Assembly (NCBI GenBank): GCA_029265615.1
Contig: JAJUIB010000001.1
Coordinates: 124,001-188,000, forward strand
Direction of reading: 5' to 3'
Source of the DNA: Spirochaetota bacterium
Lineage (GTDB): Bacteria > Spirochaetota > Spirochaetia > Treponematales > Rectinemataceae
Length of the DNA: 64,000 nucleotides
This document shows, in pieces, positions 23,914 to 34,904 of the stretch. The notes beneath the pieces are model-generated. The model searched no databases and was not told the DNA's origin. It saw only the letters and a list, made by a program, of their open reading frames with translations. Each line of letters begins with the position of its first letter. The first letter of the stretch is position 1. A program made the translations under genes and the position numbers.

Positions 23914-24270
23914 ATGCCTAATCTCAACGGACAGGGTCCCGCAGGGTGGAATATGGTGAGCGGCAGGGGGCGTGGCCCCTGCGGTGGAGCCTCGGCCGCA
24001 CGGCGCGGTTTTGGCTTCGGCCGCGGAGGCGAAGCCAAGATAGGCGCCTGTGGTTGGGGACGCGGCTTCGGATATGGCCGCGGATGGAACCTCGGTCTCG
24101 GACTCGGCCGCTTCGCCGTGGGCTATGGCTTGGAGGATTCCGAAATACGCGCCCGTAGCCTGAGACAGGTGCTCGAGGCGCGCGTTGCAATTCTTCGTGC
24201 CGAGCTTGAAAGAGCCGAGACTCTGCTCAAGAAAAGCGAAGAAGCAAGTACAGGGGGAGAAACGCGGTGA
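23914..24270 (+). CDS. DUF5320-type glycine-rich protein
   Basis: 118 residues. The start PNLNGQGPAGWNMVSGRGRGPCGG resembles the DUF5320 opening (GxGPxGxGPxTGRGxGxC). A Gly/Arg-rich middle (about 17-70, with Cys23 and Cys46) precedes a C-terminal coiled coil (about 84-112). The family has no known activity but is regularly next to NifX-like and MinD/ferredoxin ATPase genes in anaerobes. First gene of this operon, with AAGGAG about ten bases upstream, and it overlaps the next gene (GTGA). Confidence 0.8.
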   Translation: MPNLNGQGPAGWNMVSGRGRGPCGGASAARRGFGFGRGGEAKIGACGWGRGFGYGRGWNLGLGLGRFAVGYGLEDSEIRARSLRQVLEARVAILRAELERAETLLKKSEEASTGGETR

Positions 24271-25169
24271 GCGAAATTTCGCGGGTGATCATCGCGGTCG
24301 CGAGTGGCAAGGGCGGCACCGGCAAAACGACGATAGCGAGCCACCTTGCCCTCGCAGGATCGATGAAGCGCGCTGCGATCCTTGTCGACCTGGACGTGGA
24401 AGCACCTGACTCGTTCGGCTACTTTCCCGCAGCCGCGCCGCTCGGTCCGCCCGAGGCGGTATCCGTACGCTTGCCTACTGTCGACGCACAGCGCTGTCTT
24501 GGCTGCAGCCATTGCGCAAAGGTTTGCCGTTTTGGAGCGCTCATTGCGATAGGCGGTGTCGTTACCATCGACGAGCGGACCTGTAAGGGCTGCGGCCGTT
24601 GCGTTGCATCCTGTCCCGCAGGGGCGCTCATCGAGCAAGACCTTGAGGTCGGAGAAACACGCGCAGCTCGGTCCGGCACGCTTGTTTTGCTTGAAGGTCG
24701 TATGAAGGTCGGCGACATCCGCTCAACCGCGGTGATCGAGGCCGCAAAAAAGCGCGCTGAGCGCTCAGGGGTAGCACTTGAAGTCCGAGACTGCCCTCCT
24801 GGCACATCTTGTCCTGCTGTGCATGCTCTTGCGGGCGCGAATTACCTCGTACTGGTTGCCGAGCCCACGGAATTCTCTCTTCACGATCTTGGTGCCGCAA
24901 TCGAGCTTGCGATGTCGCTACACATTCCGGCGGGGGTTATCCTCAACAAAGACGGCTTTGGTTCCGCCGACGTGGAGTCGTTCTGCGCTGCCCGTCGCGT
25001 GCCGGTTATTGGACGCATTGCATTCGATCGTAAGCGAGCGCAAAAAGGCGTAGCAGGAATGCTCTGGCAAGAGGATCAAGAAATGATGGCGTGCATGGAC
25101 GCGGTTCTTGCAAGTGCAGACACCGCGATGAGATTCTGTGTCCCTGCCGAGGAAGGAGGAAAACCATGA
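24267..25169 (+). CDS. MinD/Mrp superfamily ATPase with inserted 2[4Fe-4S] ferredoxin domain (1)
   Basis: 300 residues with a GTG start overlapping the DUF5320 stop. Deviant Walker A SGKGGTGKTT (13-22), DLDVEAP (Walker A' Asp), then two ferredoxin motifs, CLGCSHCAKVC (77-87) and CKGCGRCVASC (106-116), followed by the second half of the ATPase (DCPPGTSCP). This is the layout of the ATPases of the Desulfovibrio ORP complex (DVU2103/2104 type). Likely role: ATP-dependent Fe-S or metal cluster handling. The second copy follows with an ATGA overlap. Confidence 0.92.
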   Translation: MSEISRVIIAVASGKGGTGKTTIASHLALAGSMKRAAILVDLDVEAPDSFGYFPAAAPLGPPEAVSVRLPTVDAQRCLGCSHCAKVCRFGALIAIGGVVTIDERTCKGCGRCVASCPAGALIEQDLEVGETRAARSGTLVLLEGRMKVGDIRSTAVIEAAKKRAERSGVALEVRDCPPGTSCPAVHALAGANYLVLVAEPTEFSLHDLGAAIELAMSLHIPAGVILNKDGFGSADVESFCAARRVPVIGRIAFDRKRAQKGVAGMLWQEDQEMMACMDAVLASADTAMRFCVPAEEGGKP

Positions 25170-26050
25170 CAATCGCCGTCGCAAGCGGTAAGGGCGGCGC
25201 GGGAAAGACCTCCCTAACCTCGGCCATCGCTGCAGCGTTCGGAGAATCTTGCGTTGTCGCGGATTGCGACGTGGACGCGGCCAACGGCGCGATCGCCCTC
25301 GGCGCGTTGCCGTGGGAATCAGAGCCCTACTTCGCTGGACCGGGCTTCTCAATCGAGATCGCGGCCTGTATCGCCTGCGGCGCCTGCGCGGAAGCCTGCC
25401 GCTTCGGTGCCATAAGACAAAGGCCGGGGGGAAATAGCTATGCCATCGTGCCTGAACTCTGCGAGCGTTGCGGCGCCTGCGTTGACCGCTGCACCGCGGG
25501 GGCGATTGTCACATCTGAGAAGGAAGCGGGAAGACTCTTTGTCTCCGATACCCGTCTTGGCGCGCGACTTGCACACGCGGAGCTTTTGCCTGGCGAGGAT
25601 ACAAGCGGCAAACTCGTCCGCAAGGTCCGCGAACGGGCCGACAGGCTTGCGGGGCATGAGGGTATTGTCCTTGTCGATGCGCCGCCTGGGATCGGTTGCC
25701 CGGTCATCGCATCCCTCACAGGGACTGAATGTGTCGTCATTCTCGTCGAAGCGAGTGTCTCCGGTATTAGGGATGCGAAGCGCCTCATCGAACTTGCGGC
25801 TTCCATGGGACGTAAAATGGTTGCCGTCATCAATAAGACGGGACTCGATACTGCCATGGATGAAGAGGCTCGCGCGGCAGTGCGCGAGGCTGGCCTGCCC
25901 CTCGCCGGCGAAATTCCCTTCGATCCCTCGCTGCGTTCCGCAGAGGAGCGTGGCATGACCTGGCTGAACGTAGAAGGTGCGGCGGGCGACTGTGTCCGCG
26001 CTGCGATTGCGGCGCTGCGCAGCCTCGTCGACAGCTACGGCCGCCGTTAG
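25166..26050 (+). CDS. MinD/Mrp superfamily ATPase with inserted 2[4Fe-4S] ferredoxin domain (2)
   Basis: 294 residues from ATG 25166, preceded by GGAAGGAGG. Walker A SGKGGAGKTS (7-16), then CIACGACAEAC (68-78) and CERCGACVDRC (99-109), then DAPPGIGCPVIAS. It is a diverged paralogue of the preceding gene, and the two probably form a heterodimer. Between its cluster motifs it carries a short Gly/Asn loop. The NifX-like gene follows after 29 bases with its own ribosome site. Confidence 0.92.
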   Translation: MTIAVASGKGGAGKTSLTSAIAAAFGESCVVADCDVDAANGAIALGALPWESEPYFAGPGFSIEIAACIACGACAEACRFGAIRQRPGGNSYAIVPELCERCGACVDRCTAGAIVTSEKEAGRLFVSDTRLGARLAHAELLPGEDTSGKLVRKVRERADRLAGHEGIVLVDAPPGIGCPVIASLTGTECVVILVEASVSGIRDAKRLIELAASMGRKMVAVINKTGLDTAMDEEARAAVREAGLPLAGEIPFDPSLRSAEERGMTWLNVEGAAGDCVRAAIAALRSLVDSYGRR

Positions 26051-26079
26051 GCAAAACACGACTCAAGAAAGGAGTGCAC

Positions 26080-26394
26080 ATGAAGTACGCAATTCCAACC
26101 GACGATGGAAAGACTGTCGGTTCGGTGTTCGGCAGGGCGATAAACTTCGCCCTCTACGATCACGAAGACGGTAGTTATGCAATTCTCGCAAACGAAGGAG
26201 CCAACTCCGAGCATGGCGCCGGAACGGGTGCTGCGGCCTTTCTTGCCGAAAGGGGCGTGGGAACGGTGATCGCACCCGAAATCGGCCCCAAGGCGGCCGC
26301 GGCGCTCGCGGCTGCAGGCATAGCCATCGTTAGTGTTCCCGCAGGCATTGAACTCGGCGAGGCGATGGCGAGAACAATTGCCCACACATCGTAA
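26080..26394 (+). CDS. NifX/NifB-type (dinitrogenase iron-molybdenum cofactor) domain protein
   Basis: 104 residues from ATG 26080, with AAAGGAG five bases upstream (GTG 26074 is less likely). A single pfam02579-type domain: MKYAIPTDDGKTVGSVFGRAINFALY at the N-terminus and GVGTVIAPEIGPKAAAAL in the middle. These ribonuclease H-like proteins carry labile metal clusters; in Desulfovibrio the orange protein of the ORP complex is of this kind. The usual His in HFG is replaced by a VFGRA variant, so cluster binding may differ from the second NifX domain at 34545-34904. No nif structural genes are in the window. Confidence 0.9.
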   Translation: MKYAIPTDDGKTVGSVFGRAINFALYDHEDGSYAILANEGANSEHGAGTGAAAFLAERGVGTVIAPEIGPKAAAALAAAGIAIVSVPAGIELGEAMARTIAHTS

Positions 26395-26425
26395 AAGTCT
26401 CCCGGTTTCCAGACTCATGGAAGTC

Positions 26426-26455
26426 TTGACTCCGCGGCCCATGCGCCGCTAGTCT
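26426..26455 (+). promoter_or_regulatory. Leaderless promoter of the DUF3842 gene
   Basis: TTGACT (26426-26431), an 18-bp spacer and TAGTCT (26450-26455), then exactly six bases to ATG 26462, which would be +1. No Shine-Dalgarno is present. Confidence 0.65.
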
Positions 26456-26461
26456 GACCCC

Positions 26462-26887
26462 ATGAAGCGGTGTGTCGTCGTCATCGACGGTATGGGCGGC
26501 GGTGTTGGGGCCCAGCTCATCGAACGGCTCAAGGCACAGGTGGGTGACCGTGTAGAGGTTTGGGCCCTCGGCACCAATTCGGGAGCGACCGACCGCATGC
26601 TCAAGGCGGGGGCCGATCGCGGCGCTTCGGGCGAAAACGCGATACGGGTGTCCGCCGCTCGCGGCGAACTCATTCTCGGCCCCATCGGTATCGTCCTTGC
26701 CAACGGGATGCTCGGTGAAATTACGCCGACAATGGCCGAAGCGGTGCTGGGCGCTCCCTGCGGCCGCATTCTCGTTCCGGTTCCTCAGGAGCATTTCACG
26801 CTCGCGGGCTTCGAACAGAAGCCGCTTGGCAAACTCATCGAGGACGCCTGCACCCTAGCCATGGAACGGCTTGGCATGGTAAAATGA
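26462..26887 (+). CDS. DUF3842 family protein
   Basis: 141 residues. VVIDGMGGGVGAQLIERL at the start, GTNSGATDRMLKAGAD and the ending EQKPLGKLIEDA match DUF3842, a family of small nucleotide-binding-like proteins of anaerobic bacteria with no proven function. The N-terminal glycine-rich strand-turn-helix looks like a Rossmann-type phosphate loop. It has its own promoter and an apparently leaderless start. It lies behind the ORP-like operon and so may share its physiological setting. Confidence 0.85.
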   Translation: MKRCVVVIDGMGGGVGAQLIERLKAQVGDRVEVWALGTNSGATDRMLKAGADRGASGENAIRVSAARGELILGPIGIVLANGMLGEITPTMAEAVLGAPCGRILVPVPQEHFTLAGFEQKPLGKLIEDACTLAMERLGMVK

Positions 26888-27114: not shown

Positions 27115-27882
27115 ATGAAACGCAATCCAATTTTTCTCGCCCTGGCTGTATGCCTTGCAAGCCGTTCTCTTACCGCGGAACCGCTAGGTCGCGTCATCGC
27201 TTCCACCTCGTGGACGGCCGCCTACGCTCGCGCAGCAGGCGCAAGCGATGTGTTCACCATCGCCCCTCTCGAGCTCAAGCATCCGCCTGAGTACGAGCTT
27301 AAACCCTCTGATCTTGCGGCCGTGAACGGAGCGCGCTTTCTCGTCTATTCCGGATACGAGCGCTTTGCAAAGCGTCTTGCAGAAACCGCAGGCTCCGCGG
27401 GGCTCTCGGTGACGACCGTGTATACCGACAATATCCCTGCAACCTTCAAGGAGGAAGCGAAAAAACTCGCTCTTCTCTTTGGTACCCTGCCCGAGTACGA
27501 GGCGTGGGCTCGCTCCTTTGACGCAATGACAGAGGCTATGCGGAAAAAGGTGGCCGCAGCTTATCCCGACAAACGGGTTGTTGCGCACAAATTCCTCAAA
27601 ACCTACGCCGAGTGGCTCGGCTTTGAAGTGGTCGGCACCTTTGGTCCCGGTGAACCCTCCCCCGCCCATCTCCTCGAGCTTGCGTCGGCGAAGCCTGCGC
27701 TCATTATCGACAACTACCACAATGCATCGGGAGCCTCCATCGCCGCCGCCACCAAGGCCCCGGTCGTAACGCTCATCAATTTCCCTGGCAAAGACGGCAC
27801 GCGGAGCATTGAAGACGTTTTTGCACACAATGAGCGCGCCTTTCTCGAAGCGGCGCGGCAAAGGGACGCGGCGCACAAGTGA
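27115..27882 (+). CDS. Metal ABC transporter substrate-binding protein (TroA/ZnuA-like)
   Basis: 255 residues with AGGAAA ten bases before ATG. Signal peptide about 1-21. Metal ligands are likely His56 (KHPPEY), His158 (VVAHKF) and acidic groups around Glu179 and Asp209 (IIDNYHN). It lacks the His-rich loop of the ZnuA encoded at 32145, and it is shorter. It starts an operon with its ATPase, permease and a methyltransferase. Zinc, manganese or iron are all possible substrates; no Zur box is seen upstream, so control differs from the znu operon. Confidence 0.85.
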   Translation: MKRNPIFLALAVCLASRSLTAEPLGRVIASTSWTAAYARAAGASDVFTIAPLELKHPPEYELKPSDLAAVNGARFLVYSGYERFAKRLAETAGSAGLSVTTVYTDNIPATFKEEAKKLALLFGTLPEYEAWARSFDAMTEAMRKKVAAAYPDKRVVAHKFLKTYAEWLGFEVVGTFGPGEPSPAHLLELASAKPALIIDNYHNASGASIAAATKAPVVTLINFPGKDGTRSIEDVFAHNERAFLEAARQRDAAHK

Positions 27883-28559
27883 GCACCCTGCTCGAAACGC
27901 GCGAGCTTTCCCTCGCCTATGGGCCGCGCCTTGTGCTCAAAAACACCACGCTCGCGCTTAAGGGAGGGCGGGGACGCATTGTCGGGCTCCGTGGACCAAA
28001 TGGTGCGGGAAAATCGACCTTCCTCAAGGCCTGCCTCGGCCTTCATGCGGCGCAGGGCGGCGAGCTTGCGCTCCTCGGCGCACGTCCGGGCTCGCCTGGA
28101 TTCCGCGCCGTGCTTGCGGACATAGGCTATCTACCCCAGGCGCGGCCTGCCGGACAGCTCCGCATGACGGTCGCCGAGGTGGTGGAGCTCGGCCGCTACG
28201 GCCGGCTGAGGCAGCGGCGCAGATTGAACAAGGAGGACCGCCGCGCGGTCGACGCCGCCCTCGAGGCGGCGCAGGTGACGGGCCTCCGCAATCGCGCAAT
28301 CCAGGAGCTTTCGGGCGGCCAGTACCAGCGCGTTTCGCTCGCACGGGCGCTCGCCGGCGAGCCAAAACTGCTCCTCCTTGATGAACCGAGCTCCCATCTC
28401 GATCTTGCCTCGCGCACGACGGTGGTAGAGCTCATCACGTCGCTTGCGCGAACGCGCAAGGCCTCGATGCTCCTCGTATCCCATGACGAGGAGCTTCTTG
28501 CGCTTTGCGATTCGTTCATCGACTTTTTTGAGCATCGTGCGGAGCTGCGCGATGCGTGA
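27879..28559 (+). CDS. Metal ABC transporter ATPase
   Basis: 226 residues with a GTG start inside the preceding stop. Walker A GPNGAGKST (about 39-47), signature ELSGGQYQRVSLARAL and Walker B LLLLDEPSSHLDLAS. It is of the ZnuC/TroB type and overlaps the permease start by eight bases. The Arg-rich stretch GRYGRLRQRRRLNKEDRR sits in the helical subdomain. Confidence 0.93.
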   Translation: MSTLLETRELSLAYGPRLVLKNTTLALKGGRGRIVGLRGPNGAGKSTFLKACLGLHAAQGGELALLGARPGSPGFRAVLADIGYLPQARPAGQLRMTVAEVVELGRYGRLRQRRRLNKEDRRAVDAALEAAQVTGLRNRAIQELSGGQYQRVSLARALAGEPKLLLLDEPSSHLDLASRTTVVELITSLARTRKASMLLVSHDEELLALCDSFIDFFEHRAELRDA

Positions 28560-29379
28560 GCTGTTCGCCTTACCCCCCTTTCGCCGCGCGCTCATCGCCC
28601 TCGCGGCGACCGGTGTCTCATTCCCCGCACTCGGAACCTACATCCTTGCACTGGAGCTTGTATCCGCGCGCTTTGCGGTGATGCATGCCGCCCTTCTCGG
28701 CGCGGCCCTCGGGCTGCTCGCCGGTATTCCCGCCCTGCCGGCCGCCATCGCCGCCTCACTCGTTGCGGGAGCGGGCGTAGCTCGCCTTTCGGAGAAGAGT
28801 TCGACCTCGGCGGGTGGCGCCCTTGGCCTTGTGATGACGCTCTCGCTCGGACTTTCGTTCATCGTGTTCTACAAGGCAGAAATCAACGCGATCGAGGCCT
28901 TCGACCTCTTTTGGGGCTCGGTGCTCGCGCTGTCCCAGCTCGAACTCGTTCTCACCGTCACCGGCGCGGTCACGGTGCTTGCGCTTTCATGGTTGTTCAT
29001 CCGCGAAATCGGCGCCGTCCTCTATGATCGCGAACTTGCACGAACCTTCGGCATACCCGCGCGCACGGTCTATTACGGCATCGTCATGGCGGTCTGCCTT
29101 GGCATCGCCCTTGCGATGCGGGTGACGGGCGCCCTTATGGTCGACGCAGTGACGATCCTTCCCGCCCTTGCCGCGAGATCGCTGAAAAAAGGCCTCAAGG
29201 GCAGCCTTCTCTGGGGTGCGTTTTTCGGCCTTGCCATGAATTTCGGGGGCTTTACCCTCGCGCTCGTACTTGATCTTCCCGCGAGTCCCGCCATCATCGT
29301 ACTCGGCGCAGTTATTGTCGCCGCGGCGCGGATTGTTGAAACGCGCCGTAGCCGGGGCGCCGTGAGAAAGGAGCCTTGA
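28552..29379 (+). CDS. Metal ABC transporter permease
   Basis: 275 residues from ATG 28552; the frame extends upstream but only through the ATPase gene. About eight helices of the ABC-3 (ZnuB/TroC) family, with the conserved segment AVLYDRELARTFGIPARTVYYGIVM and the metal-path region ALAMRVTGALMVDAVTILPALAA. It works with the two preceding proteins. Its stop is three bases before the methyltransferase ATG. Confidence 0.92.
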   Translation: MRELFALPPFRRALIALAATGVSFPALGTYILALELVSARFAVMHAALLGAALGLLAGIPALPAAIAASLVAGAGVARLSEKSSTSAGGALGLVMTLSLGLSFIVFYKAEINAIEAFDLFWGSVLALSQLELVLTVTGAVTVLALSWLFIREIGAVLYDRELARTFGIPARTVYYGIVMAVCLGIALAMRVTGALMVDAVTILPALAARSLKKGLKGSLLWGAFFGLAMNFGGFTLALVLDLPASPAIIVLGAVIVAAARIVETRRSRGAVRKEP

Positions 29380-30099: not shown

Positions 30100-30437
30100 A
30101 GCGTGTGCTCCGTGACGCGAACGTCGAATTCGCGCTCAAGTTGGTCGCAGAGTCTCCCTAACCTGCAAACACCGAGATCGATAAAGCGGTGGCAGGACTC
30201 GCAATGGAACCAGTGGTGGTGCCGCTCGCCTGCGGCGATATAGTAGCGCTCCGTTCCGTCCCGTGCGCAGTGAAGGACGAAGGACTCTGCGCTTCCCGTC
30301 TCCTCGAGATAGGAAAGGGCGCGATACACTGTCGCCTGGTCGCAGATATCGCCGATGCGCGCAATGACGCCAGCGGCGGAAAGCGGTTCTTCCGCACTGC
30401 GAAGTGCATCAAGAACGGCCTTTCGTGCGCGTGTCAC
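30063..30437 (-). CDS. zur: Fur family regulator, Zur-like
   Basis: 124 residues from GTG 30437 with AAGGAGGGG directly upstream; it overlaps the znuB stop (GTGA). The winged helix (about 8-60) includes DQATVYRALSYLEE, and the dimer/metal domain has HHHWFHCESC (73-82) and a C-terminal CGDC (119-122). The two CxxC pairs hold the structural zinc of Fur/Zur proteins. It is the last gene of the znuACB operon, which makes zinc the obvious ligand, and it likely binds the two boxes at 33091-33153. It is rather short for the family because the N-terminal arm is trimmed. Confidence 0.92.
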   Translation of the reverse strand: MTRARKAVLDALRSAEEPLSAAGVIARIGDICDQATVYRALSYLEETGSAESFVLHCARDGTERYYIAAGERHHHWFHCESCHRFIDLGVCRLGRLCDQLEREFDVRVTEHTLYFSGLCGDCRK

Positions 30438-31372
30438 GCCCCCTCCTTGGGCCCAGAAAGAGAAGCTCCCGAAACGCAATCCTGAAGTCCTGTCTTCGCA
30501 TGGGCTGTTTTTCGTACGCGCCGCATGCGCAGTGCGCCTGCGGCAAGCCCCGCCCCACTTGCGCCAAGGAAGACGAGGCCGGAAATGACCACGACCGTGG
30601 CACCCGCAGGCAGATCGAGCGCCCAACTTGCGCCGAGGCCGAGAAGCGAAAATATGACCGAATACAGACTCGCAAGGAGCATCATCCCGGCAAGGCTTTT
30701 CGCCGAGCGACTCGCCGTGCCGGCTGGCAGGGTGAGCATCGCAATCACCATGACGATGCCGACGAATGTCTGAAGAAGCACCACGGCGACTGCGACCACC
30801 GCAAGGAGAACAAGGAACACCAGATCGGTCTTAACCCCGCGGGTGCGCGCGAAATCCTCGTCAAATGCCGAGGCCTCAATCTGCGGCAGGAAGGCCCAAG
30901 CGAGCACAATGACGAGTGCGTCGAGCGCGGCGAGAAGGATGAGGTCACGACCGGAAACAAGAAGTATGTTGCCAAAAAGATAGCTCATGGGATCGGCATA
31001 GCCCGGTGTCTTTGCGATAAGAAGGACGCCGAGGCTCATGCCAATAGCCCAAATCGCATTGATGACCGTGTCCTCGCGCTGTTTGGCCTTGAGCGACACA
31101 AGGGCGATGAGGAGCGCCGCAAGCACCGCAAAGACGAGTGCGCCGACGATGGGAGGAAGATCGGGCAGAATGCCGCGCGAGGCGAGGAAGATCGAAAGGC
31201 CCACACCGCCTAAAACAGCGTGGGAGATGGCGCCCGCAAGGCCCGCCACGCGTTTCACCGTGACGACTGCGCCCAGCACCCCGAAAAGCAACGAGGACAG
31301 AAGACTTGCGAGCACCGCATTTCGCACAAAGGGCATAGCAGGATCGAAAAGCGCCGTGAAAAAGCCGCTCAT
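30434..31372 (-). CDS. znuB: Zinc ABC transporter permease
   Basis: 312 residues with GGAGG before ATG 31372; it overlaps znuC (ATGA). About eight to nine helices of the ABC-3 family, KRVAGLAGAISHAVLGGVGL near the N-terminus and FVGIVMVIAMLTLPAGTASRSAKSL in the second half. The C-terminal 40 residues are hydrophilic and Arg-rich. It forms the zinc channel with ZnuC on the cytoplasmic side. The stop is shared with the zur start. Confidence 0.94.
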   Translation of the reverse strand: MSGFFTALFDPAMPFVRNAVLASLLSSLLFGVLGAVVTVKRVAGLAGAISHAVLGGVGLSIFLASRGILPDLPPIVGALVFAVLAALLIALVSLKAKQREDTVINAIWAIGMSLGVLLIAKTPGYADPMSYLFGNILLVSGRDLILLAALDALVIVLAWAFLPQIEASAFDEDFARTRGVKTDLVFLVLLAVVAVAVVLLQTFVGIVMVIAMLTLPAGTASRSAKSLAGMMLLASLYSVIFSLLGLGASWALDLPAGATVVVISGLVFLGASGAGLAAGALRMRRVRKTAHAKTGLQDCVSGASLSGPKEGA

Positions 31373-32148
31373 CGCCGTTCCTCCCCCTCGAAGCAGGCGT
31401 CCTCGCCCAAGTCGGTCTCATGGAGAACCCGGAGCACAGGGCCTGCGCCGCGCTCGCGAAGCCCCTCCTCCGCGACTGGCTCCACGGGATGCCTCACCAC
31501 CTCGCCGCGTCGGCCCCCGCGTTCGCGGATGCAGAGCGCCGCATCGGTGAGGCTCGAAACAAAGCTCGTGTCATGCGTGACGATGAGGATTGTCGTCCGC
31601 CCCTTAAGCGCGCCGAGGCTCCGAAAAAGAAGTTCCTCGCTCTCGGTGTCCATGTTTGAGGTTGGCTCGTCAAGGATGAGGAGCCGCGGAGAAGAGGCAA
31701 GGGCGCGCGCGACAAGAACACGGCGGCGCTGGCCGCCTGAAAGCGCCGCATAGGAGCGGTCGGCAAGCGCGGCGACACCCGCCTCATCCATTGCACGCCG
31801 TGCCGCTTCTTTGTCGTCGCGGCAATACCGGCCGCTTGCGCCGGGGAGCCGCCCCATAAGGACCACGCGTTCAACGGACACGGGAAAGGCGGGGTCATAG
31901 ACCACGGCCTGAGGCACATAGCCCACATCTCCCCGCGCCGCCTCGGGGCTTTGCCCAAACACGCTCACCCGGCCGTGCGCAGGGCGCGCAAGGCCGAGGA
32001 TGAGCTTAAGAATGGTGGTCTTGCCCGCTCCGTTGGGACCGAGAAGTGCGGCGAACTCGCCCTCATGGATATGAAAACTTGTGTGATCAAGCACCTCGAT
32101 GCCGCCGTAGGAAAACGACACCGCATCGAATCGGACCGCGACATTCAT
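31369..32148 (-). CDS. znuC: Zinc ABC transporter ATPase
   Basis: 259 residues. Walker A GPNGAGKTT (about 37-45), signature ALSGGQRRRVLVARAL and Walker B LLILDEPTSNMDTES. A C-terminal tail of about 50 residues rich in Arg and Glu goes beyond the ATPase core. ATG 32148 overlaps the znuA stop (ATGA). Confidence 0.94.
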   Translation of the reverse strand: MNVAVRFDAVSFSYGGIEVLDHTSFHIHEGEFAALLGPNGAGKTTILKLILGLARPAHGRVSVFGQSPEAARGDVGYVPQAVVYDPAFPVSVERVVLMGRLPGASGRYCRDDKEAARRAMDEAGVAALADRSYAALSGGQRRRVLVARALASSPRLLILDEPTSNMDTESEELLFRSLGALKGRTTILIVTHDTSFVSSLTDAALCIRERGGRRGEVVRHPVEPVAEEGLRERGAGPVLRVLHETDLGEDACFEGEERR

Positions 32149-33056
32149 CGGATGCCCTTTTTGAGCGCCTCGCCCATCCGCTCCAGGTTGGCAAGCCAGT
32201 CGCCTGAAAGATCGTCGAGCGGCAACACCACTCCACCGAGGGAACGGGCAAGCGTGGTGGCAGCCGCGGTGGGGAATTGCGCTTGGACAAAAATCACCGA
32301 AACGCCCTCAGCCTTCGCCCGTGCGACAAGGGCGGCGAGAGTCCTTTGCGTCGGCTCTTTGCCGCCTGTTTCCACCGACACCTGGCGAATGCCGAATTCA
32401 TCAAGAAAATACCCAAAAGCCGGGTGATAGACAAACACCGGCCGCCCTTTAAGTGGCGCAAGTTCGCGCGAAAGGCGTGCGAAAACTGCGTTCACCTCGC
32501 GTTCGAGCGCAGTGTAATTCGCGGTATAAACCGCCCTTCCTGCAGGGTCGAGCATCACAAAGGCATCGCGCATGCGCGCGGCCATCGCAAGCGCCTCATC
32601 GCGGCCAAGCCAAACATGCGGATCGAGGCCCCCCCCCTCGACATGCCCGCCAGAGGGCGCTTCATCGTCCGAATGTCCTTCATCATCGTGATCGTGCGCT
32701 TCAAGCGGCCTGCGCGCTATGCCCTCGGTCACATCGATGAGCTTGAGCCGCGGATACGCCGCGGCGACTTTGTGCATAAGCGCCTTTTCAAACTCGATGC
32801 CGATCGTAAACCACGCGGCAGAGATACTAAGATCGGCAATCTGACGCGGACTTGGCTCGTAGGCGTGTGGGTTTTGTCCTGGCCCGACAAGGGTGAGGAC
32901 GGAAAAACGACCGCCTGCTATCCGTTCAGCAAGATAGGCGGTGGGGGGAATACTCACCGCCACCTGTGGACGCGGAGCTGCGGCGCAAAGCCCGCCGGGG
33001 GAAAAAAGCGCAAAAAGGGCGACTGTGGTCAGCGTGTAAAGTCCGCGATGCCGCAT
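32145..33056 (-). CDS. znuA: Zinc ABC transporter substrate-binding protein with His-rich loop
   Basis: 303 residues from ATG 33056, chosen because AAGGAG lies seven bases upstream and a signal peptide follows (cleavage near Ala25-27); a longer frame to 33158 would run through the Zur-controlled promoter. Zinc ligands expected at His64 (NPHAYEP), His147 (DPHVWL) and His211 (YHPAFGYF). Between the first two is a His/Asp-rich loop (about 121-138), typical of ZnuA and used to collect zinc. First gene of znuACB-zur. Confidence 0.94.
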   Translation of the reverse strand: MRHRGLYTLTTVALFALFSPGGLCAAAPRPQVAVSIPPTAYLAERIAGGRFSVLTLVGPGQNPHAYEPSPRQIADLSISAAWFTIGIEFEKALMHKVAAAYPRLKLIDVTEGIARRPLEAHDHDDEGHSDDEAPSGGHVEGGGLDPHVWLGRDEALAMAARMRDAFVMLDPAGRAVYTANYTALEREVNAVFARLSRELAPLKGRPVFVYHPAFGYFLDEFGIRQVSVETGGKEPTQRTLAALVARAKAEGVSVIFVQAQFPTAAATTLARSLGGVVLPLDDLSGDWLANLERMGEALKKGIR

Positions 33057-33090
33057 GATATTCTCCTTGAACTGTCCCAAGGGGCACAGG

Positions 33091-33107
33091 TTGCAAATGA
33101 TTTGCAA
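33091..33107. promoter_or_regulatory. Zur-type box 1, TTGCAAATGATTTGCAA
   Basis: A perfect 8-1-8 inverted repeat, the 7-1-7 geometry of Fur-family sites. It covers the predicted znuA transcription start (about 33107). Confidence 0.8.
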
Positions 33108-33113
33108 AAATGA

Positions 33114-33142
33114 AATATACGTCACACACCGCCGTTTTGCAA
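33114..33142 (-). promoter_or_regulatory. znuA promoter
   Basis: Minus strand TTGCAA (33137-33142), a 17-bp spacer and TATATT (33114-33119). The -35 box lies inside Zur-type box 2 and the start point inside box 1. Confidence 0.8.
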
Positions 33143-33153
33143 GTGATTCGCAG
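33137..33153. promoter_or_regulatory. Zur-type box 2, TTGCAAGTGATTCGCAG
   Basis: Differs from box 1 at three positions and shares TTGCAA-TGATT-GCA. It overlaps the -35 hexamer. The two boxes start 46 bp apart, close to an even number of helical turns (about 4.4). Confidence 0.72.
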
Positions 33154-33218
33154 AACAAGAGTGGTGCGCAGAACTCCTCAGCTTAGGATCTGGCGGAGGC
33201 CCCTCAAGGAGCGCCCCG

Positions 33219-33247
33219 TTGACTATCGGGCATATGCCTGTTATCTT
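33219..33247 (+). promoter_or_regulatory. Promoter of ORP-like operon 2 with embedded palindrome
   Basis: TTGACT (33219-33224), a 17-bp spacer and TATCTT (33242-33247). The spacer contains GGCATATGCC (33229-33238), sharing the GCATATGC core with the palindrome at 23841-23866. Binding there would exclude RNA polymerase. Confidence 0.65.
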
Positions 33248-33315
33248 CTTCTTCAAGTCCATGCAGAGTCGAGCTTATGGTGAGCTTTGGCGCACCTAAG
33301 CTTTGGGAGGAACAC

Positions 33316-34236
33316 ATGCACGAAAATCCAGGTTCGCCTATAGCACGGCAGGGCAATAGGGCGAGCTATGTCATTGGCGTTGGCTCGGGGAAGGGCGGTG
33401 TCGGCAAATCGACTGCCGCCGTTCTCCTCGCCGAAGCGCTCTCCGTCAAGGGCCTCAGGGTCGGTCTCCTCGATGCGGACATCACCGGGCCAAGTGCGCC
33501 GCGCCTCCTCGGGCTTGAATCGGCGCGCGCCGAATCCGACGGCGAAAAACTCTTTCCCATCCGTGCGGAGCAGGGCTTTGGGGTGATGTCGATCAATTTC
33601 CTCGTCGAGGACGAGGATGCGCCGGTTATCTGGCGTGGTCCCCTTCTTTCACGCGCCGTCGAACAATTCTGGCAGGACGCCGAATGGGGCGAGCTTGACG
33701 TCCTTGTCGTCGACCTGCCGCCAGGCACGGGCGACGTGGTTATCACCGCCCTCACCTCGCTACCGATGACCGGCGTCGCCTTTGTCGCGACGCCGCAGGA
33801 CCTCGTCTCCATGGTCGTCGCCAAGGCGGTCGGCATGGCCAAGGCGGCTGAGGCGCAGGTGCTCGGCGTCGTAGAAAACATGGGCTCGATCGTCTGCCCC
33901 GCATGCGGCAAGGAGCACCCTCTCTTTGCTTCCGGCGAGGCGGGAAAGTCGGGGGCCGCGCGTCGGGGCCTGCCCCTCCTCGGAAAATTCCCCTTCCGGC
34001 CCGAGATCGCGCAGCGCGGCATTATCCGCTGGGACGAGCTTCCAGCGGGGCTCAAGGCCGAAGCGCTTGCATTCGCGGACGCGACCCTTGCCGCCGCGAA
34101 AAAAGCAGCTGCCGTTCCAGGGAGAAACCGGACAAGCCGCGCCGAGGCAGGCGAAGCGCACGAAAAGTGCGAAGGCTGTGGATGCTCGGGCGACTGCTCA
34201 AGCGGCGAGGGCTGCTCGGGCGGCTGTGCGAACTGA
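33316..34236 (+). CDS. mrp: Mrp/NBP35-type iron-sulfur cluster carrier ATPase with Cys-rich tail
   Basis: 306 residues from ATG 33316 (GGGAGG six bases upstream). Walker A GSGKGGVGKST (about 23-33), DADITGPS, DLPPGTGD and the CxxC pair Cys194/Cys197 (VCPACGKEH), which holds a bridging 4Fe-4S cluster in Mrp dimers. The last 25 residues carry a second Cys-rich patch (EKCEGCGCSGDCSSGEGC), unusual for plain Mrp and likely another metal site. It is fused by TGATG overlap to a DUF134-NifX gene, the pairing seen for Mrp and ORP proteins in sulfate reducers. Confidence 0.93.
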   Translation: MHENPGSPIARQGNRASYVIGVGSGKGGVGKSTAAVLLAEALSVKGLRVGLLDADITGPSAPRLLGLESARAESDGEKLFPIRAEQGFGVMSINFLVEDEDAPVIWRGPLLSRAVEQFWQDAEWGELDVLVVDLPPGTGDVVITALTSLPMTGVAFVATPQDLVSMVVAKAVGMAKAAEAQVLGVVENMGSIVCPACGKEHPLFASGEAGKSGAARRGLPLLGKFPFRPEIAQRGIIRWDELPAGLKAEALAFADATLAAAKKAAAVPGRNRTSRAEAGEAHEKCEGCGCSGDCSSGEGCSGGCAN

Positions 34237-34904
34237 TGCCCCGCCCCTTTTCCGGGCGTCGCGTCTATCTTGAGCCCGCCGCGACGCTCTACAAGCCAGC
34301 AGGGTTTCCAGGCCGCGGACTCGAGGAAATATGTCTCGGTCTCGATGAACTTGAGGCTCTCAGGCTCGCTGATAAAGAAGGGCTGTACCAGGAGGCAGCC
34401 GCGATGCGCATGGGTGTGTCGCGGCAAACCTTTGGCCGCATCGTCGAGGCCGCGCGCCGGAAAGTGGCGACGGCTCTTGTCGAGGGCAAGGCGCTCCGCA
34501 TAGGCGGAGGGCCCGCAATACGTGACATAGAAGAGGAGCGAAGCATGAAGATAGCAGTCCCCACGCGCGACGGCGCGGTCGATGCGCACTTTGGCCACTG
34601 CGCCTATTTTTCTATCTACACTGTCGAGGATGGCAGGATAGTCGGGGAAGAACGGCTTGAGTCGCCCGAAACCTGCGGGTGCAAGAGTGGCATTGCAGGC
34701 GAACTCGCACGGAGCGGCGTCAAGAAACTCATCGCTGGCAATATCGGCGAAGGAGCAGTCCGCGTTCTCGGCTCTTTCGGCATCGAGGTCGTCCGCGGCG
34801 CCACGGGGAGTGCCCGTGGCGCGGTTGAAGGTTTTCTCGCCGGGAAAACCTTCGAACATGGTGCAAACTGCCATGAGCACCACGGAGATTGCGCAAACCA
34901 CTAA
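34236..34904 (+). CDS. DUF134 helix-turn-helix protein fused to a NifX-type domain
   Basis: 222 residues from ATG 34236, overlapping the mrp stop. Residues 1-95 are a DUF134 domain (MPRPFSGRRVYLEP, LDELEALRLADKEGL, then the HTH MRMGVSRQTFGRIVEAARRK). Residues 104-205 are a NifX/dinitrogenase cofactor domain (MKIAVPTRDGAVDAHFGHCAYF, with ETCGCK). A His/Cys tail (HGANCHEHHGDC) follows. It could sense an Fe-S or metal cluster and bind DNA, making it the best regulator candidate for the GCATATGC palindromes. A strong AGGAG six bases before Met104 (ATG 34545) suggests that the NifX part is also made on its own. Confidence 0.9.
   Translation: MPRPFSGRRVYLEPAATLYKPAGFPGRGLEEICLGLDELEALRLADKEGLYQEAAAMRMGVSRQTFGRIVEAARRKVATALVEGKALRIGGGPAIRDIEEERSMKIAVPTRDGAVDAHFGHCAYFSIYTVEDGRIVGEERLESPETCGCKSGIAGELARSGVKKLIAGNIGEGAVRVLGSFGIEVVRGATGSARGAVEGFLAGKTFEHGANCHEHHGDCANH
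34534..34547 (+). promoter_or_regulatory. Internal ribosome site and start codon inside the DUF134-NifX gene
   Basis: AGGAG (34534-34538), six bases, then ATG (34545-34547) in frame at residue 104, exactly where the NifX domain begins (MKIAVPT). This is as good a ribosome site as those of the real gene starts in the window. Confidence 0.6.

Follow-up and report, generated by a model that had tools for sequence, protein, structure and literature searches.

In Streptomyces coelicolor the Zur box tGaNNatSatNNtCa is a 15-bp sequence of 7-1-7 architecture, two copies of which are located at znuA (PMC5472717). The znuABC operon of Escherichia coli is controlled by a Fur-family repressor that sits over promoter elements and senses the metal through H77, C88, H96 and E111 (PMC4219657). 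For Magnetospirillum gryphiswaldense Fur, an iron regulator, co-crystals with the feoAB1 operator are available (4rb2/4rb3), the DNA of which, TTAATTGCAAATCATTTGCAATTGC, had been mutated toward a palindrome for crystallisation (PMC4506495). In Clostridium thermocellum DAP-seq of the Zur-like regulator Fur_1691 yielded the motif TGCAAATcATTTGCA, strongest upstream of the zinc ABC operon clo1313_1690-1688; conservation of the sites extends to C. clariflavum, C. stercorarium and Caldicellulosiruptor bescii (PMC8457756).

Here we describe a locus in a genome of the Spirochaetota (Rectinemataceae) that resembles these systems. It is located in a window of 64,000 nucleotides, i.e. the whole stretch of DNA that was analysed, and consists of an operon in the order znuA-znuC-znuB-zur, encoded on the minus strand throughout with a 4-base overlap at each gene junction, and of two near-identical palindromes upstream of znuA (Table 1). 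An earlier note on this DNA had placed two Zur boxes at the znuA promoter and zur at the end of the operon. Both boxes were found exactly at the positions listed, and zur is indeed the last gene of znuACB-zur. Each box is a 15-bp inverted repeat with the half-site TGnnAAT or a close variant and lies over promoter elements, so that the 7-1-7 pattern of the Zur/Fur class proposed by the note holds: TGCAAAT-G-ATTTGCA covers the predicted start and TGCAAGT-G-ATTCGCA the -35 hexamer. The proximal box extends to an 8-1-8 palindrome and begins at the predicted transcription start (~33107, at the edge of the box). On the coding strand the -35 hexamer is formed by the last bases of the distal box and one further base. 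The TTGCAA-17-TATATT promoter, likewise claimed by the note, is the only promoter-like site on the minus strand of 32900-33400.

Table 1. Operon genes, predicted promoter elements and predicted operators (positions in the window).
Feature	Position	Strand	Basis or remark
Proximal Zur box TTGCAAATGATTTGCAA	33091-33107	-	Predicted operator, motif match; minus strand reads TTGCAAATCATTTGCAA
Distal Zur box TTGCAAGTGATTCGCAG	33137-33153	-	Predicted operator, motif match; minus-strand core TGCGAATCACTTGCA (33152-33138) plus flanks
Predicted -35 hexamer TTGCAA	33142-33137	-	Embedded in distal box, from its 3' half
Predicted -10 hexamer TATATT	33119-33114	-	17 bp past -35
Likely ribosome-binding site AAGGAG	33063-33068	-	Sequence
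znuA, zinc ABC transporter substrate-binding protein	32145-33056	-	PF01297, E 1.1e-59; start codon ATG at 33056
znuC, ATP-binding subunit	31369-32148	-	Domain annotation
znuB, ABC-3 permease	30434-31372	-	E 9.7e-57
zur, Fur-family regulator, 124 aa	30063-30437	-	GTG start at 30437; GTGA overlap with znuB

The closest likeness is to C. thermocellum. The 15-mer palindrome TGCAAATcATTTGCA is identical in both organisms, the proximal box being the same TGCAAAT-type box TGCAAATnATTTGCA and likewise preceding a zinc ABC operon; the gene of Fur_1691 adjoins its target operon (by locus numbering) as zur does here. The two systems belong to different phyla, and Fur_1691 has further DAP-seq peaks and targets, whereas only one target operon is predicted in the spirochaete genome; a fusion of the operator with a -35 element is not described in the accessible part of that report (PMC8457756). 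The exact proximal 17-mer TTGCAAATCATTTGCAA is contained in the MgFur crystal DNA, although the metal and the target gene differ (PMC4506495). S. coelicolor Zur shares the 7-1-7 architecture and the two znuA boxes, but has TGA half-sites where TGC[A/G]A is found here, as well as a many-gene regulon (PMC5472717). E. coli Zur differs by a longer AT-rich box that is bound by two cooperative dimers (PMC4219657). Because the Fur_1691 motif, the MgFur crystal DNA and the S. coelicolor box precede it, the operator is not of a new kind. The earlier note had suggested that the half-site TGCAAAT could define Zur recognition in this lineage; it very probably does mark Zur recognition there, but the half-site already occurs in the Fur_1691 motif (PMC8457756) and in the MgFur DNA (PMC4506495).

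A genome scan with the boxes, which the note had proposed for listing the zinc regulon, recovered the znu operon but no larger regulon. In a pattern search with the degenerate pattern TGCRARYNRYTYGCA exactly two mismatch-free sites were found in the 2.7-Mb genome, both upstream of znuA. The near-matches on another contig (C15:2669 and C15:3060) are both within coding sequence: one belongs to the gene at 2076-2798 of L176, the other falls close to the beginning of an SMC-like gene. With no other exact site present, a regulon of one operon is predicted for this genome. A second metal ABC-3 transporter of the AztABC/ZnuABC type, followed by a methyltransferase gene, is located at 27115-29379 on the plus strand, convergent with zur; its upstream region contains no box, and it was not counted as a Zur target. 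Both metal transporters are flanked by DUF134/NifX-domain genes and by genes for P-loop ATPases of the Mrp/NUBPL type, of which some carry ferredoxin-like Cys motifs (24267-26887 and 33316-34904, plus strand). Exact boxes elsewhere in related genomes were mostly intragenic or in genomes without zur and were therefore not taken as additional targets. One of them, a perfect TGCAAATCATTTGCA (G041:C1:354062, positions 1501-1515 of L160), precedes a sigma-factor gene by about 54 bp in a genome in which this Zur was not found, and was treated as a chance match.

We then compared znuA loci from 79 related genomes and from a set of named genomes (Treponema, Gracilinema, Breznakiella, Sphaerochaetaceae and further Spirochaetales), all of them spirochaetes and some present in both sets. 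Within 350 bp of znuA one or two copies of the box were found in 51 of the 110 loci, and the distal box of the window matches the motif common to these 51 loci exactly. The 61 distinct sites follow the motif TGC[A/G]AA[T/c]-N-[A/g][T/C]T[T/C]GCA, bordered by A/T-rich sequence. The loci in which this degenerate motif was counted are also those from which it had been derived, although the window supplied its core word and flanking DNA served to measure its specificity. Across the 597,646 bases of the 80 named loci there are 30 exact matches, every one of them inside a znuA start window; these windows total 30,009 bases. The spacing between paired boxes varies widely, from 16 to 63 bp with most values at 38-55 bp, and therefore suggests that dimers bind independently and do not form a fixed cooperative array.

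The earlier note's reading depended on the boxes recurring at orthologous znu promoters. We found the box at znuA in essentially every spirochaete with this Zur, whereas it is absent where the Zur is missing. In relatives whose ZnuA is a close orthologue and whose upstream DNA is readable, the Zur clade and the box were both present in 29 genomes and both absent in 15, while two (G016 and G026) had the box without a detected zur (Fisher p = 3e-10, the genomes not being independent of each other). In the latter two the contig ends before the expected zur position. Both states, zur with box and neither, occur within at least three families. zur is linked to the zinc uptake operon as its last gene and is co-inherited with it. 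In G025 zur has been lost from the operon, though other members of the genus have it, and only a degenerate TGCAGACCATCTGTA is kept. G060, a genome whose ZnuA is distant and whose zur has diverged, lacks the strict motif; it is not a counterexample to the link, as a variant palindrome, CGCGAATCGTTCGCG (TAAACGCGAATCGTTCGCGTTTA), is located between znuA and zur.

Two further loci deserve mention. In G016 two boxes (564-637 of L161, G016:C17) are located between znuA and an upstream co-oriented gene for a LacI-family regulator. The congener G001 lacks a ZnuA orthologue, yet carries the box TGCGAATGACTTGCA at 795-809 of L195 (G001:C350:1-2000; feature span 795-1134), a degenerate second box about 46 bp away, a spacing as in the window, and at 961-1134 a C-terminal Zur fragment from which the DNA-binding domain is missing. 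This remnant is possibly the deletion scar of znuACB-zur, or else the box may now serve a divergent gene for a NicO-like membrane protein.

The fusion of operator and -35 element is conserved in spirochaetes. Thirty distinct boxes have C at position 10; in 25 of them the best position for a -10-like hexamer is exactly 17 bp downstream of the TTGCAN that the box provides, whereas shuffled downstream DNA gave a mean of 0.7 and a maximum of 5. For boxes without this C the corresponding number is 2 of 31, so that two positional classes of the box can be distinguished: one that doubles as -35 element and reads [A/G]CTTGCA, and a symmetric one downstream of the -10 element that reads [A/G]TT[T/C]GCA.

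The regulator encoded by zur matches PF01475 (E 1.1e-11), and an AF2 model built from 15 orthologues has a Fur/Zur fold with a mean pLDDT of 93.7. A structure search matched Fur and Zur structures alike and did not separate the two. The best PDB match by sequence is S. coelicolor Zur (3mwm), with B. cereus Fur nearly tied. Two CxxC motifs, C79/C82 and C119/C122, are invariant, the pattern of a structural Zn(Cys)4 site. The putative metal ligands C57, H73, H75, H83, C91 and H111 are invariant as well; the sensor residues H77/C88/H96/E111 of E. coli Zur are not kept in the same form (PMC4219657). By a tentative hand alignment the Cys marking E. coli Zur (C88) is not found at the aligned place, the Cys here lying nearer that of H77. 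Tyr38-Arg39, also invariant in the orthologues, correspond to Tyr56-Arg57, the pair through which MgFur contacts the bases (PMC4506495).

Taken together, we consider it very probable (about 0.92) that the palindromes are operators of Zur, the Fur-family repressor whose gene closes the operon, and that zinc-loaded Zur represses znuACB-zur while loss of zinc releases it. That Zur is the binding protein, zinc the metal and repression rather than activation the outcome we infer from knowledge of the family and the cited precedents. Other readings can be weighed against the same data. The boxes might belong to another Fur-family paralog such as an iron Fur or PerR, or the transporter might carry iron or manganese. 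MgFur, an iron regulator, binds the same sequence; when compared with NCBIfam, no model reached the cut-off for the regulator, PerR and Fur being the nearest, nor for ZnuA, the nearest there being Deinococcus MntC. But the box is present only with the operon-linked regulator clade and vanishes with it, though weak matches point to further Fur paralogs in these genomes, and unlike the sites of a global iron regulon it occurs nowhere else in the genome. ZnuA moreover contains a His/Asp-rich stretch, HDHDDEGHSDDE, which counts for zinc as the substrate; such stretches are typical of zinc-binding ZnuA proteins. We therefore regard a different regulator or metal as very unlikely.

It is very unlikely that, besides znuA, the boxes control the divergent operon of NUBPL/DUF134/NifX-domain genes, which runs from 33316 onward on the plus strand. 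The two operons share the intergenic region, and a promoter-like TTGACT-17-TATCTT is found on the plus strand at 33219-33247, but the boxes stop 66 bp upstream of this promoter and overlap none of its elements, and the products of that operon have no clear link to zinc. Chance palindromes that overlap a promoter without a regulatory role would agree with the looser matches to the box, which occur at chance frequency (11 sites with ≤2 mismatches in the window, 10.5 expected). The only two exact sites in 2.7 Mb are however both located at znuA, and they are kept across families and co-segregate with zur. As judged from this sequence conservation, the chance reading may be taken as already refuted, and its probability as practically nil.

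If the boxes are Zur operators, the circuit would work as follows. At sufficient cytoplasmic zinc, zinc-loaded Zur dimers would bind both 7-1-7 boxes, the distal dimer covering the -35 element, for which the operator half-site itself provides the hexamer, and the proximal dimer covering the transcription start. RNA polymerase would thereby be excluded. When zinc falls, Zur would give up its sensor zinc and leave the DNA, and znuACB-zur would be transcribed. Because zur sits in the operon, the repressor would be made together with the transporter, resulting in negative feedback. The circuit appears to control no other operon in this genome. A more far-reaching proposal, which we put forward tentatively and consider somewhat doubtful, is a dedicated one-operon Zur switch with merged operator and -35 element that is gained and lost as a unit in Spirochaetota. 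In its -35 boxes the C at position 10 (CTTGCA), which breaks the symmetry, would be under selection, and the Zur clade may sense zinc via relocated Cys-containing ligands (C57, C91) as compared to the E. coli arrangement.

The boxes of the znu operon are thus a well-supported yet fairly ordinary example of a Zur operator. A literature search of open-access papers found no Zur motif for spirochaetes, and as far as these papers show, the use of this operator in Spirochaetota, its conserved fusion with the -35 element there and the one-operon regulon seem to be unreported. The finding provides an operator that can be tested, and with it a Zur circuit of apparently one target, in a phylum for which these papers yielded no such motif. 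It makes zinc regulation predictable from sequence across spirochaetes, the box separating lineages with a Zur-regulated znuACB from those without the box, such as many Treponema metagenome loci.
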